40,389 nt of DNA from a candidate division FCPU426 bacterium (GTDB taxonomy: Bacteria > Oederibacteriota > Muellerivitia > Muellerivitales > Muellerivitaceae), in contig JASHNQ010000047.1 of the NCBI GenBank assembly GCA_030041545.1, positions 1 through 40,389 on the forward strand, given 5' to 3'. Under the pieces are notes generated by a model. It was not told the origin of the DNA. It ran no database searches and was given only the letters and a program-made list of their open reading frames with translations. Positions 25,003-31,320 of the stretch are shown piece by piece. Position numbers and translations under genes: made by a program. How positions within the stretch are numbered: the first letter of the stretch is position 1; each line of letters begins with the position of its first letter.

Positions 25003-26610
25003 ATGCCCCAACTGATCGAAACCCCCAGCCAAAACTTCCTTTCCGCCGAACCCAAGGTGACCTTGGTCAACACCTTCGCCAAGCCTTTTGACAACGCGGT
25101 AGCCACTGCCCGAACCTGTTATTCCAGCAAAGGCATCATCACGGCCGAACAGGTGGCGGGGGAGGGCCTGGACGAGGAAAAGCGCGAGGAACGCCGCCAG
25201 AAACGCGACGAATTGGTCCGGTCCATTTACAAGGCGGGCCACCACACCACCCTGCAGCACGCCTCCTTCCAGTTCGCGCTGGAGAACGTGTCCCGGCAGT
25301 TCATTTGGAGCTTCCTGCATAGCCATCCCTTTTACAACTCAGAGCAGGTATCCCAACGCTATGTGACGGTCAACCCCACCCAGATGGCCATGCCGCCGCT
25401 TGAACGGGAAACCGCTAAGGCGTACCTGTCGGCCATCGCCTTGCAAACCCAGGCCTATGAGGAGTTCACCGAGGCCTTGAAGCCCCTGGTGGAGCGGGAA
25501 TACCTGGCCCGGTTCCGCCACGCGGACCCCCAGGGAAAAAAGGTGCTGACGGCGGTACAAAAAAAATCCCAGGAAGTGGCGCGCTACGTGCTGCCCGTGG
25601 CTACCTTCGCTTACCTCTACCACACGGTTTCCGGGCTCACCCTTTTGCGGTACTGGCGGCTTTGCCAGACCTTTGACGCACCGCTGGAGCAGCGCATCGT
25701 GGTGGGCAAGATGGTGGAGGCGGTCTTAAACGAGGCCCCCGAATACCGGGCCATCCTGGAGCAGCCCCTGGCCTTTGAGGCCACGGCCGAGGCCCAGATC
25801 TACGAGGGGTTCCACGCCACGGCAGCCACTCATAAAGCCTTCCGCCAGGAGTTCGACGCCTCCCTGGGCGGCTATATCTCCCGCCTGGTGGATTATTCCA
25901 AGGACGGGGAAGGAATGCTGGCCTCAGCGGTGCGGGAGGTTTTCGGTATGCCCTCCTCCGCCCTGTCCGACGACCAAGCCATCGAATTAGCCTTAAACCC
26001 GGCCAAAAACAAATACCTGGGCGAGACCCTGAACGTCACCACCCACAGCAAGCTTTCGCGGGCGCTCTTCCACCCCCACTACACTTTCCGCAAGAAGATT
26101 TCCCACACCGGGGATTCCCAGGACCAGCGGCACCGCATGACGCCCGCCTCCCGGCCCATCCTGCACGCCCTCACCCTGGATGAACCGGATTATATCGTCC
26201 CCGTGCTCCTGAAGCAGGACAAGGCATTGGAGCGGCGCTTCGCCGAGGTCATGAACAAGAGCTGGGAAGCCATCGGAAAATTGCGGGAAATGGGCGTTTC
26301 CGACGAGTTCGCGTCCTACCTGCTGCCCAACGCTGTGGCGGTTCGTTTCACCGAATCCGCCGACCTTTTGAACCTGCACCACAAGCACGCCATGCGGCTT
26401 TGCTACAACGCCCAGGAGGAAATCTGGCAGGCTTCGGTGGACGAGGCCCAACAGATAAGGGAGGTTCACCCCCGCATCGGCAAATGGCTGCTGCCGCCCT
26501 GTTCCCTCAGGGCCTTCGCGGGCACGCTGCCCAAGTGCCCCGAGGGTGACCGCTTCTGCGGCGTGGTGGTGTGGAAGAAGGATTTGAACGAATACCAGCG
26601 GGTGATTTAA
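25003..26610 (+). CDS. thyX: Double-length FAD-dependent thymidylate synthase-like protein (tandem ThyX)
   Basis: 535 residues, about twice a usual ThyX (about 220-250). ThyX methylates dUMP to dTMP with methylene-tetrahydrofolate, FAD and NADPH. The N-terminal half has GHHTTLQHASFQF (about 80) and NSEQVSQRYV (about 112-121), the second half of the ThyX signature RHRxxSxNExSxRY, but LHS-H replaces RHR. The C-terminal half has SQDQRHRMTPASRP (about 372-385), which keeps RHR but not the following part. Two diverged ThyX domains, each keeping half of the motif, is the simplest reading. No ThyA is seen in the window. Start ATG preceded by AAGAGA. Confidence 0.85.
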   Translation: MPQLIETPSQNFLSAEPKVTLVNTFAKPFDNAVATARTCYSSKGIITAEQVAGEGLDEEKREERRQKRDELVRSIYKAGHHTTLQHASFQFALENVSRQFIWSFLHSHPFYNSEQVSQRYVTVNPTQMAMPPLERETAKAYLSAIALQTQAYEEFTEALKPLVEREYLARFRHADPQGKKVLTAVQKKSQEVARYVLPVATFAYLYHTVSGLTLLRYWRLCQTFDAPLEQRIVVGKMVEAVLNEAPEYRAILEQPLAFEATAEAQIYEGFHATAATHKAFRQEFDASLGGYISRLVDYSKDGEGMLASAVREVFGMPSSALSDDQAIELALNPAKNKYLGETLNVTTHSKLSRALFHPHYTFRKKISHTGDSQDQRHRMTPASRPILHALTLDEPDYIVPVLLKQDKALERRFAEVMNKSWEAIGKLREMGVSDEFASYLLPNAVAVRFTESADLLNLHHKHAMRLCYNAQEEIWQASVDEAQQIREVHPRIGKWLLPPCSLRAFAGTLPKCPEGDRFCGVVVWKKDLNEYQRVI

Positions 26611-28282: not shown

Positions 28283-28897
28283 ATGAAAAAGGCCTATTCA
28301 TGCGCCGGTTTAATACTGCTCGCGGCCGCTGGTTCGGCGTTTTTGACAGGCTGCCCCAACAACAGTTACGCCCCCACTTCCCCCGGGGTCACCAATACCA
28401 ATACGTTCACGCCGACTCCCACCCCCACCGGTCCCACCGCAACCCCCACGAATACGGCTACTTCCACCGACACGCCCACCATTACCAATACCCCGACCAT
28501 CACCTACACCCCCACGGTCACTTCCACACCCACGATTACTTTCACCCCGACGGCCACGGCCACCCCTCCGTCCTTTGCCAATACGTTGTACCCGATCGTT
28601 TCAAACAATTGCCTTAGCTGCCACGCCAACGGCGGTGAGGGCACCTCCTACATGAACCTGGGCAGTAATCCCACGGCGGCCCAGGTTTACGCGGACTGGG
28701 TTGGCGTCGCGGATAATTCGACCAACAGTTGCGGCATCGCCGATTATGTGGTCGCCGGCAACGCCAACACCAGCCTGATCATCCAAAAACTCAACGGTTC
28801 CTGCTCGCCGTCAATGCCGTATGAGGAGTCTGAATTGAGCACGACCGACATCAATGAGTTCATCGCCTGGGTCAACGCTGGGGCGCCCAACAACTAA
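28283..28897 (+). CDS. Lipoprotein c-type cytochrome with Thr-Pro linker
   Basis: 204 residues from the ATG at 28283, with an excellent GGGAGGA 5 nt upstream (an in-frame extension to 28133 is rejected). Lipobox FLTGC with Cys24 acylated. Residues about 30-95 are a TPT linker (TFTPTPTPTG, TPTITNTPTITYTP). The C-terminal domain has one haem site, CLSCH (about 111-115), followed by NGGEGTSYMNLG and a helix ending ELSTTDINEFIAWVNAGAP, as in small monohaem cytochromes of the planctomycete-type group. A distal Met (SMPYEE) may be the sixth ligand. Probably tethered outside the cell or in the periplasm by the linker. It converges on the cytochrome-porin gene next door. Confidence 0.85.
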   Translation: MKKAYSCAGLILLAAAGSAFLTGCPNNSYAPTSPGVTNTNTFTPTPTPTGPTATPTNTATSTDTPTITNTPTITYTPTVTSTPTITFTPTATATPPSFANTLYPIVSNNCLSCHANGGEGTSYMNLGSNPTAAQVYADWVGVADNSTNSCGIADYVVAGNANTSLIIQKLNGSCSPSMPYEESELSTTDINEFIAWVNAGAPNN

Positions 28898-28921: not shown

Positions 28922-28953
28922 GCCCCCGGCTGATGCCGGGGGCTTTTTATTTT
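28922..28953 (+). terminator. Intrinsic terminator after cytochrome lipoprotein
   Basis: 9-bp stem GCCCCCGGC with GCCGGGGGC, TGAT loop, then TTTTTATTTT. Confidence 0.93.
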
Positions 28954-29062: not shown

Positions 29063-30250
29063 TCAATAAAACATGTAAGCGTCCGCCAGGAGGCTGTAAC
29101 TGGGGTCGTTCAGGGCCAGGTCGGGCGCGGTGCGTTGGAAGTCGATTTGGGTTTTCAAATTACGGATGGGGTAGCAGCGGAGGCTGAGCACTTGGCGGGT
29201 TTCATCAAAGGCACTCTCATACAATGAATCAATGAATCTCTCGGTGACGAGGCGTAGGTAGATGTCGTCACCCAGGTCCACCTCCCCGCTGACGTGATAG
29301 GCCGTCAGGTTGTCGCGCTCAATCCCGTTGTTGATAAAACCCGGCAGGAATTGGGTCGGTTCGGTGGATCCCATGTCGTACTCGGCCAGGAGCACGACGG
29401 GCCCCATCCTTCCCCAGCCGTAGGCGTTGTAAATCAAGGTTTGGGCGCTGGCAGGGACGCTGGTTTGAGTGCCGCCAGGTTCATCCAGGTTGGCGGCGCA
29501 GAGGGAGCCGCCGACCGTGAAATCGGAGAAACACACCCCGCCCTTGGCGGTGAAGGTCTTCTCGTTCATCACCACTCCACCCGCCGCGTTGGTCACGGGG
29601 CCGGCGTCCCCATTGGTAAGGGCCGCGTTAAAGAAGAAGGGATAGGGATAAACGCCGGCCTCCACCGCGCTGATGGGGGGGCTGGCGAAGGTAAAACCAA
29701 GGGGCGCGCGGATCAGGCTGTTGTCGTCGGAAAGGGTGAGGCCGTAGGGAGGGAGGAAGTCCCCGAACTTGACGTAGGCGCCCTCCGGCAGGTTCGAGAC
29801 CAGGCCGTAGGCTTCCTTGGTGGAGTTGGAATCCAGGCGGTAAGTAAAAACCCCCGAAACCACCTCGTTGGCCTTCACTTGGAAGGAAAAATCCTGGCGG
29901 CTGAGGGCCCCGCCGGAGGTAAAGGCGCTGGTGTTCTGGTTTCCGGGACCGGAAGTGTTGAAATTCTGGGTGGTGAGGTAACCCTCGTGGACATCCAAAC
30001 CGATGGCGACAAAGGAAGGGGTGGAATGCTGGATTTTTTGGGCCTCCTCGGAAATACCTTGCCAGTCGAAGGCTTGGAGGCTGTTGCCATAATTTTTCCC
30101 GAAATCGTTACGCAGGAATCCGCCCGTCTGGTTGACGTGGCAGGCGTTGCAATTGACCCCCTTCCAAGCCGCCAGGTAGGGCTCAGCCCAAGCGCCGGAG
30201 GCCCCCCAGGCCAAAACCACCATCAACGCCCCCGACCAGCGCTTTTTCAT
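29063..30250 (-). CDS. Monohaem cytochrome-porin fusion (Cyc2-like architecture)
   Basis: 395 residues from the ATG at 30250 with GGGAGGA 5 nt upstream. A signal peptide (about 22 residues, GAWA-E) is followed at once by one c-type haem motif CNACH (34-38) and the segment GGFLRNDFGKNYGN. The rest (about 85-395) alternates aromatic and polar residues in strands and ends in aromatic residues (AYMFY), as in outer-membrane beta-barrels. Fusion of one CXXCH domain to a barrel is the layout of Cyc2 iron oxidases and of related delta-proteobacterial proteins; length is also similar (about 400). Overall identity to Cyc2 cannot be judged here. Likely role: electron transfer across the outer membrane. 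Neighbouring cytochrome lipoprotein supports a redox context. Confidence 0.7.
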   Translation of the reverse strand: MKKRWSGALMVVLAWGASGAWAEPYLAAWKGVNCNACHVNQTGGFLRNDFGKNYGNSLQAFDWQGISEEAQKIQHSTPSFVAIGLDVHEGYLTTQNFNTSGPGNQNTSAFTSGGALSRQDFSFQVKANEVVSGVFTYRLDSNSTKEAYGLVSNLPEGAYVKFGDFLPPYGLTLSDDNSLIRAPLGFTFASPPISAVEAGVYPYPFFFNAALTNGDAGPVTNAAGGVVMNEKTFTAKGGVCFSDFTVGGSLCAANLDEPGGTQTSVPASAQTLIYNAYGWGRMGPVVLLAEYDMGSTEPTQFLPGFINNGIERDNLTAYHVSGEVDLGDDIYLRLVTERFIDSLYESAFDETRQVLSLRCYPIRNLKTQIDFQRTAPDLALNDPSYSLLADAYMFY

Positions 30251-30495
30251 GTTTCCTCCCGGTGGATTGCGGCTTTCCCCCCTAAAGGAGGCCTTTGGTT
30301 GCCGCGTGATGAGGGATACCCCGTCTTCCACCCGCCTTCGCCCGTGGGGCTCCCTAATGAATACCGTTTCGCGGCCCTAAAGTTTCAAAAGGACGCCCCT
30401 AAAAACCGTATTCCGGGCCAGGGGGCCTGGAAACCCCTCCCAAAAGGCCTGGCGGGTGCTATAGTTTTGGACTCCATTTTCCCAGCGAGGTTGCC

Positions 30496-31320
30496 ATGAT
30501 CCCTATCCGCCTGGCCCACAGCCCCGACGCCGACGACGCCTTTATGTTTTACGGCCTGGCCAAGGGCAAGATCGACACCGAGGGCATCGAGTATGAGCAC
30601 ATCCTCAAGGACATCCAGACCCTCAATGTATGGGCCCGGGAAGGCCTCATGGAGGTGACCGCCCTTTCGGCCCACGCCTACGCCTACGTCAAGGACAAGT
30701 ACGCCCTCCTGACGCACGGGGGAAGCATCGGCAAAAACTACGGCCCCATGGTGGTGGCCAAGGAAGCGCGGCCCATCGAATCATTCAAACGGATCGCGGT
30801 GCCCGGCAAAATGACCAGTGCCTACCTGGCCCTGAGATTGCGCCACCCGGATTTCGAGGAAGTGGTCATGAACTTCGACGCCATCCAGCCCGCGGTGGCC
30901 AAGGGGGAAGTGGAAGCCGGGCTTCTCATCCACGAGGGACAATTGACCTACCAGGATGACGGGCTGAAATGCGTGGTGGAACTGGGCCAATGGTGGTTCG
31001 AGAAAACCCAATTGCCCCTGCCCATGGGCGTCAACGGCATCCGGAGAGACCTGCCGGAGGATGTGAAGAAAAAGGTCTCCAAACACTTGAAACAGTCCAT
31101 CCAATATTCCCTGGACCACCGGGAGGCGGCACTGGACTACGCCCTGGCTTTTGGGCGGGGCCTGGCCCGCGATGTGGCCGACAGGTTCGTGGGCATGTGG
31201 GTCAACGACCGCACGGTGGACATGGGCGAGGAAGGCCAAAACGCCATCAGGGAGTTCTTGAAGAGGGGTGAGGAGAAAAAGTTGATCCCCGTCGTGGGGG
31301 AAATCGAGTTCGTCAGTTAG
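30496..31320 (+). CDS. mqnD: 1,4-dihydroxy-6-naphthoate synthase MqnD (futalosine menaquinone pathway)
   Basis: 274 residues. Converts cyclic dehypoxanthinyl futalosine to 1,4-dihydroxy-6-naphthoate. Seen: AHSPDADDAFMFYGLAKGKI at the N-terminus (family SPCPNDTFIFHAL), GGSIGKNYGPMVV, the IPG-like loop AVPGKMTSAYLAL, and the MqnD-type block GLLIHEGQLTYQDDGL with LGQWWFEKTQLPLPMG. The SPDADDAF variant of the family motif is noted. Periplasmic-binding-protein fold, cytoplasmic. The last 8 bp overlap the 3' end of the converging glycosyltransferase gene. Other mqn genes are not in the window. Confidence 0.85.
   Translation: MIPIRLAHSPDADDAFMFYGLAKGKIDTEGIEYEHILKDIQTLNVWAREGLMEVTALSAHAYAYVKDKYALLTHGGSIGKNYGPMVVAKEARPIESFKRIAVPGKMTSAYLALRLRHPDFEEVVMNFDAIQPAVAKGEVEAGLLIHEGQLTYQDDGLKCVVELGQWWFEKTQLPLPMGVNGIRRDLPEDVKKKVSKHLKQSIQYSLDHREAALDYALAFGRGLARDVADRFVGMWVNDRTVDMGEEGQNAIREFLKRGEEKKLIPVVGEIEFVS

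Follow-up and report, generated by a model that had tools for sequence, protein, structure and literature searches.

Analysis of the window, a stretch of 40,389 nucleotides that forms contig 87 of a bacterial genome of 3.8 Mb (98.5% complete), suggests that the cytochrome-porin fusion, until now known through Cyc2, has a second family. Judged from its sequence, the cytochrome-porin encoded in the window is a sister of Cyc2 in a separate family, and it is not Cyc2 by the published definition. With slightly less than even confidence, we propose a second, unrecognised family of outer-membrane cytochrome-porins beside Cyc2 in many bacterial lineages (the GGG family), with its own signature (P/T)GG(G)-x(1-2)-R, monohaem and dihaem forms and a frequent lipoprotein partner, for which the source of the electrons taken up would be soluble, and either different from Fe(II) or additional to it. 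The original prediction correctly assigned the DNA to an uncultivated lineage; its closest named relatives are metagenome-assembled genomes of candidate division FCPU426.

The features of the cytochrome-porin gene and of the neighbouring lipoprotein gene are listed in Table 1. Homologues of the cytochrome-porin gene without internal stops were found in eight sister genomes. The signal peptide (MKKRWSGALMVVLAWGASGAWA) was read by eye, the CNACH motif starts 11 residues past its AWA end, and the remainder of the protein is predicted barrel. A single CXXCH directly after the signal peptide, as had been claimed, is thus present at residues 34-38 of the 395-aa ORF. In the window, two ORFs of at least 80 aa contain CXXCH, namely those of the porin and the lipoprotein, with one motif each.

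Table 1. Positions in the window of features of the cytochrome-porin gene and the adjacent lipoprotein gene
Feature	Position	Strand	Basis and remarks
Cytochrome-porin gene	29063..30250	-	395 aa, stop included; ORF reading and sister-genome homologues
Ribosome-binding site GGGAGG	30255..30260	-	Read from sequence; upstream of the cytochrome-porin ATG
Signal peptide, residues 1-22	30185..30250	-	Recognised by eye from KKR, a hydrophobic core and the cleavage site A-W-A
Haem c attachment motif CNACH, residues 34-38	30137..30151	-	Invariant in both family alignments
NQTGGFLR segment, at the place of PXL in Cyc2	30110..30133	-	Family-specific; general form N-P/T-x-GG(G)-x(1-2)-R
Predicted 16-strand outer-membrane beta-barrel, residues 81-394	29069..30010	-	AlphaFold2, Foldseek, profile match to Porin P 2o4v
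Partner monohaem c-type cytochrome lipoprotein	28283..28897	+	Sequence; homologues in the order only on the contig of the cytochrome-porin
Lipobox cysteine, LTGC, Cys24	28352..28354	+	Sequence pattern
Spacer rich in Thr/Pro that joins the lipid anchor to the haem domain	28391..28570	+	Read from translation
Haem motif CLSCH of the lipoprotein	28610..28624	+	Sequence
Probable distal haem ligand in the lipoprotein, Met of SMP	28814..28816	+	Inferred from class I cytochrome c pattern
Terminator-like hairpin and T run after the lipoprotein gene	28922..28948	+	Read from sequence

The mature cytochrome-porin was modelled with AlphaFold2 from a 28-sequence alignment (pLDDT 80.3, pTM 0.82). The model has 16 long strands, short N-terminal helices round the CXXCH and a low-confidence linker at residues 38-54, and its last strand ends at the C-terminus. 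Foldseek searches with this model returned 16-strand porins, with OprP (2o4v) in the top four (E 2.8e-12, TM 0.62). The family profile matched the same Porin P (OprP, 2o4v) with E 0.003, which was the sole sequence-profile match among PDB sequences. Hence, the outer-membrane barrel of the original prediction, which was to be abandoned if the predicted structure had none, held in both the model and the Foldseek comparison. A Cyc2-motif protein of a sister genome, modelled likewise, gave a porin-like barrel too. We infer that the cytochrome-porin is inserted into the outer membrane and loaded with haem.

Searches with the single protein against Pfam, NCBIfam and PDB sequences gave no useful match, and neither Pfam nor NCBIfam holds any model for the GGG family. 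With a profile of 12 relatives, long and strong matches for the family were obtained from about 25 genomes beyond the phylum. One copy of the GGG-type cytochrome-porin was present in each of the nine genomes of the order. A description of this type was not found in the open-access literature (subscription papers and preprints lay outside that search). For one distant family member, L034, a relative was sought in plasmid records and not found.

The haem motif is conserved. In a barrel-wide profile search, CXXCH stood at the same place in every strong relative whose N-terminus was not cut by a contig end; these relatives, found by the whole-protein profile, provide the unbiased count. In the family alignment, with rows picked by a pattern that itself contains the haem motif, the C, C and H of CXXCH, the first G of the GG pair and the following R were invariant in 28 of 28 proteins. 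Several barrel glycines were likewise invariant, and K139, F143, R159 and E175 (mature numbering) were nearly so. The haem signature of the GGG family reads CxxCHxN-(P/T)-GG(G)-x(1-2)-R. The possibility that the haem motif would not be conserved in homologues was thus dismissed, and the unusual haem-domain phrase that had caught attention originally (CNACH..GGFLRNDFG) proves to define the family against Cyc2, according to this alignment and the barrel-only tree described below. Among the 28 aligned proteins, no Met, His or Lys in the vicinity of the haem was conserved as a candidate second axial ligand, and the set of Cyc2-motif proteins likewise had no conserved second ligand there.

One subfamily (L118, L119, L121, L122 and L124) carries a pair of haem motifs ahead of the barrel, in most members with the pattern CxxCH...RKCxLSCxxCHVxPxGGGMR. 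A monohaem cytochrome gene adjoins several members of this group.

We compared the window protein with the published definition of Cyc2, which requires AXPXFAR[Q/K][T/Y] upstream of CXXCH and PXL downstream (Keffer et al. 2021, PMC8406198). The window protein shares the signal peptide and, behind it, the single N-terminal CXXCH. A Cyc2 also has a 16-strand OprP-like barrel and at least 365 aa, and OprP is one template used for Cyc2 (PMC8406198); the window protein, at 395 aa, has 16 strands in the prediction. Upstream of CXXCH, however, it reads AEPYLAAWK, and the part in which Cyc2 has PXL, four residues past CXXCH, reads CNACHVNQTGGFLR. It also did not group with Cyc2-motif proteins in the phylogeny, a barrel-only tree. 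In this tree, a branch with SH-aLRT 99 divided 37 GGG-type from 25 Cyc2-motif proteins, a well-supported split from a very divergent alignment and a quick search without bootstraps, in which the root is not shown. The proteins of the order formed one clade with support 100.

The two families are nevertheless distantly related. Alignment of the GGG profile with the Cyc2-motif profile by hhalign gave a match of 98.9% (E 1.3e-17) over 325 columns, end to end, and the barrels still matched at 97.5% (E 8e-12) after removal of the haem domain, versus less than 0.5% for reversed control profiles. Against ARQ-type Cyc2 alone, the alignment was limited to the first 20 residues, so that the link between the GGG family and Cyc2 goes through the wider ARK-type proteins. 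The original designation as a Cyc2-like fusion is therefore right with respect to architecture (AlphaFold2) and distant homology (hhalign), but membership of Cyc2 is contradicted by the absence of both motifs.

True Cyc2 also occurs in the order. Of the 26 Cyc2-motif genes that a DNA pattern derived from the published motifs recovered from 384 genomes, five were in this order (G001, G003, G006, G007 and G008) and none in the window's genome. When the genomes of the family were searched directly with L079, a sister Cyc2, no Cyc2 turned up in G000, G002, G004 and G005; this search had no internal positive control, but the motif pattern did find Cyc2 in the five sister genomes. Both types of cytochrome-porin are thus present in five genomes. 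Hence, the order has two distinct cytochrome-porin systems, and the window genome appears to have the GGG type only.

At L127 (G001) and L128 (G006), the Cyc2-motif gene follows genes for a cytochrome oxidase subunit, of CuA type as read from the pattern CxxxCxxxHxxM, and a ferredoxin-like membrane protein. This arrangement is possibly a Cyc2 iron-oxidation cluster in FCPU426. At L041 and L042 (also L094 and L095), a GGG-type cytochrome-porin adjoins a Cyc2-like protein (AIPAFARREKMPCHRCHDSWPRLNKFG) and a dihaem cytochrome, so that both sister families occur in one cluster.

The neighbouring gene encodes the c-type lipoprotein tethered by a TPT-rich stretch that had been noticed originally. 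By sequence pattern, residues 21-24 (LTGC) form a lipobox, and a spacer of 86 residues, mostly Thr/Pro, separates the lipobox Cys from the single CLSCH haem motif. The lipoprotein matched Cytochrome_CBB3 (PF13442) with 18.8 bits, under the Pfam cut-off of 27, and PSCyt1 (PF07635) was not reported for it; its relatives L055, L057 and L088 were above the PSCyt1 threshold. A reading as adhesin or S-layer piece was rejected, because the C-terminal CXXCH...MP...W(I/V)xxGA is common to cytochromes. The fold of the 66-nt terminator region after the gene was no stabler than that of shuffles (z -0.8). Spacer length varies greatly within the genus, from 86 residues in the window to about 281 in L002 (1065-2375), and is about 30 residues in distant relatives.

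Genes for such cytochromes are linked to those of the cytochrome-porins. In 15 of the 39 loci, a monohaem c-type cytochrome gene, PSCyt1/CBB3-like and usually encoding a lipoprotein, lay within 1.2 kb of the cytochrome-porin gene. With a permissive search pattern of which MP is a part, 16 partner-type cytochromes were found in 86 kb nearby, compared with 6 in 401 kb at greater distance (odds ratio 12; Fisher p ~6e-8 assuming independent loci, which these are not entirely). Most partner cytochromes have a lipobox; those in L094 and L095 are of a different, dihaem type. A genome-wide search of the nine genomes of the order with the lipoprotein haem domain yielded six matches, counting the window lipoprotein, from four genomes. 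All six were on the contig of the cytochrome-porin, within about 4 kb of its gene: in three genomes the lipoprotein gene adjoins that of the porin, G002 having a further copy about 1.6 kb away, and in G006 it lies at a distance of 3.3-3.8 kb. The same search found no homologue in the other five genomes, four of which are 94-98% complete, and the lipoprotein therefore cannot be obligatory. When 12 window genes were compared with the other loci of the order, the lipoprotein and patchy, partial matches to a YfhO-like membrane protein were all that recurred; the ThyX, HAD and menaquinone genes were not syntenic there. The lipoprotein is presumably a direct partner of the cytochrome-porin.

Among distant family members, c-type cytochrome genes that look P460-like adjoin L017/L056, L088 and L090, a reading with Pfam support for L088 and made by eye for L017/L056 and L090.

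All nine genomes of the order, all of which carry the GGG protein, have a haem-copper oxidase, versus 4 of the 35 other genomes of the phylum, an association confounded by ancestry since the nine belong to one order. A cytochrome c assembly protein was likewise found in nine of nine. Within the phylum, seven genomes carry Cyc2-motif genes, and each of the seven has an oxidase as well. Upstream of the cytochrome-porin gene and divergent from it, the window contains a futalosine-route menaquinone-biosynthesis gene at 30496-31317 (VitK2_biosynth, MqnA/MqnD type), and menaquinone is, from this sequence, probably made in the window genome. A ThyX-family protein of 535 aa at 25003-26607, about twice the usual length, contains two Thy1 stretches and looks like a tandem duplication. 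Furthermore, L003 (JAJPJW010000165.1, Centralia_MAG_561) was deposited as 'Proteobacteria bacterium', its contig matches G001, of the same genus as the window genome, and the record is probably mislabelled.

We see an even chance that the cytochrome-porin is a one-haem electron conduit through the outer membrane that operates in the manner of Cyc2 and takes electrons of a dissolved donor through the lipoprotein to respiration. By analogy with the proposal for Cyc2, the N-terminal haem peptide would sit at or in the periplasmic mouth of the 16-strand barrel, with the haem probably facing the periplasm, so that only dissolved donors could reach it. A small dissolved reductant, putatively Fe(II) or another one-electron donor, would enter the pore and reduce the haem. 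The natural carrier to follow would be the adjacent lipid-anchored monohaem cytochrome, which its flexible spacer may allow to shuttle, and from there the electron would travel through periplasmic carriers to the haem-copper oxidase. The signal peptide, single CXXCH and 16-strand barrel, the profile homology to Cyc2, the linkage to cytochrome genes and the presence of oxidase and cytochrome c assembly genes argue for this conduit, but in the window the porin and lipoprotein genes are convergent, tail to tail, and form no operon. As a proposed function, the extracellular electron conduit suggested originally is the best-supported reading.

From its sequence, the window protein might instead be a functional equivalent of Cyc2 that oxidises Fe(II), i.e. 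a Cyc2 that has drifted, in a lineage with true Cyc2 in sister genomes. It has the same architecture and remote homology, and the window genome and three others of the family (G002, G004 and G005) carry the GGG protein and gave no Cyc2 match, as if the GGG protein could take the place of Cyc2. However, this is unlikely, in view of the absence of both haem-domain motifs and the separate clade in the barrel-only tree. Moreover, the five genomes with both proteins show that the two are not simple alternatives, and Cyc2 adjoins the CuA-type oxidase subunit gene in G001 and G006, whereas the GGG protein adjoins other genes or the lipoprotein cytochrome. The direction of flow is not set by anatomy, which is equally compatible with a lipoprotein or periplasmic cytochrome that reduces the porin haem, and with transfer from there to a dissolved extracellular acceptor entering the pore. 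The probable synthesis of menaquinone would also suit such outward flow, which we nevertheless consider rather improbable, given the haem-copper oxidase in all genomes of the order with the GGG protein and a single haem at the periplasmic mouth that could not reach solids. Because every carrier genome of the order has the oxidase, inward flow to it is the more likely direction.

Since no second axial ligand is conserved, the role of the haem could lie in binding a small molecule and not in electron relay. The protein would then be a haem-gated or haem-sensing porin, or an enzyme, in which the haem either gates uptake or binds or converts peroxide, NO or sulfur species, with long-range electron transfer in second place. 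The invariant Arg beside the haem and the P460-like cytochromes next to some distant relatives are consistent with such a role. In contrast, the Cyc2-motif set also has no conserved second ligand although Cyc2 is an electron-transfer protein, and the commonest neighbour is an ordinary monohaem cytochrome, probably of His/Met type; this leaves a small probability for a sensing or enzymatic function. That the CXXCH arose by chance in an ordinary porin without haem is hardly credible. Relatives at about 20% identity retain the motif, followed by (P/T)GG and R, right behind the signal peptide, one subfamily has two haem motifs at that place, and cytochrome c assembly genes are present.

To our knowledge, Cyc2 has been described as unique in its cytochrome-porin fusion, and it serves as a marker of iron oxidation. 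The sister family is about as frequent as Cyc2 in the genomes searched and is unmodelled in Pfam and NCBIfam, which implies that the fusion design is broader than Cyc2. In loose profile searches, its members could be miscounted as Cyc2, or overlooked. Furthermore, the conserved haem signature and the partner cytochrome make a concrete two-gene system for expression and testing.

Compared with known systems, the window protein has in common with Cyc2 the signal peptide, the N-terminal single CXXCH and the 16-strand OprP-like barrel, and Cyc2-motif proteins show significant full-length profile homology to its family. In contrast to Cyc2, it has (P/T)GG(G)-x(1-2)-R and neither AXPXFAR[Q/K][T/Y] nor PXL, and the GGG family forms a separate barrel clade and often adjoins a monohaem lipoprotein. 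The phosphate-selective porins OprP and OprO share the barrel fold but have no haem; OprP has an arginine ladder for phosphate. Several partner lipoproteins pass PSCyt1 (PF07635), whereas the window lipoprotein, with its long Thr/Pro spacer, matches Cytochrome_CBB3 (PF13442) weakly and stays below the curated cut-offs. MtrCAB, MtoAB and PioAB likewise combine an outer-membrane barrel with a c-type cytochrome, but theirs is a 26-strand barrel with a separate decahaem cytochrome. The window protein, with one haem fused to a 16-strand barrel, is not of this MtrAB type (26-strand barrel and separate multihaem cytochrome), and the results suggest a second one-haem design for electron transfer at the outer membrane.
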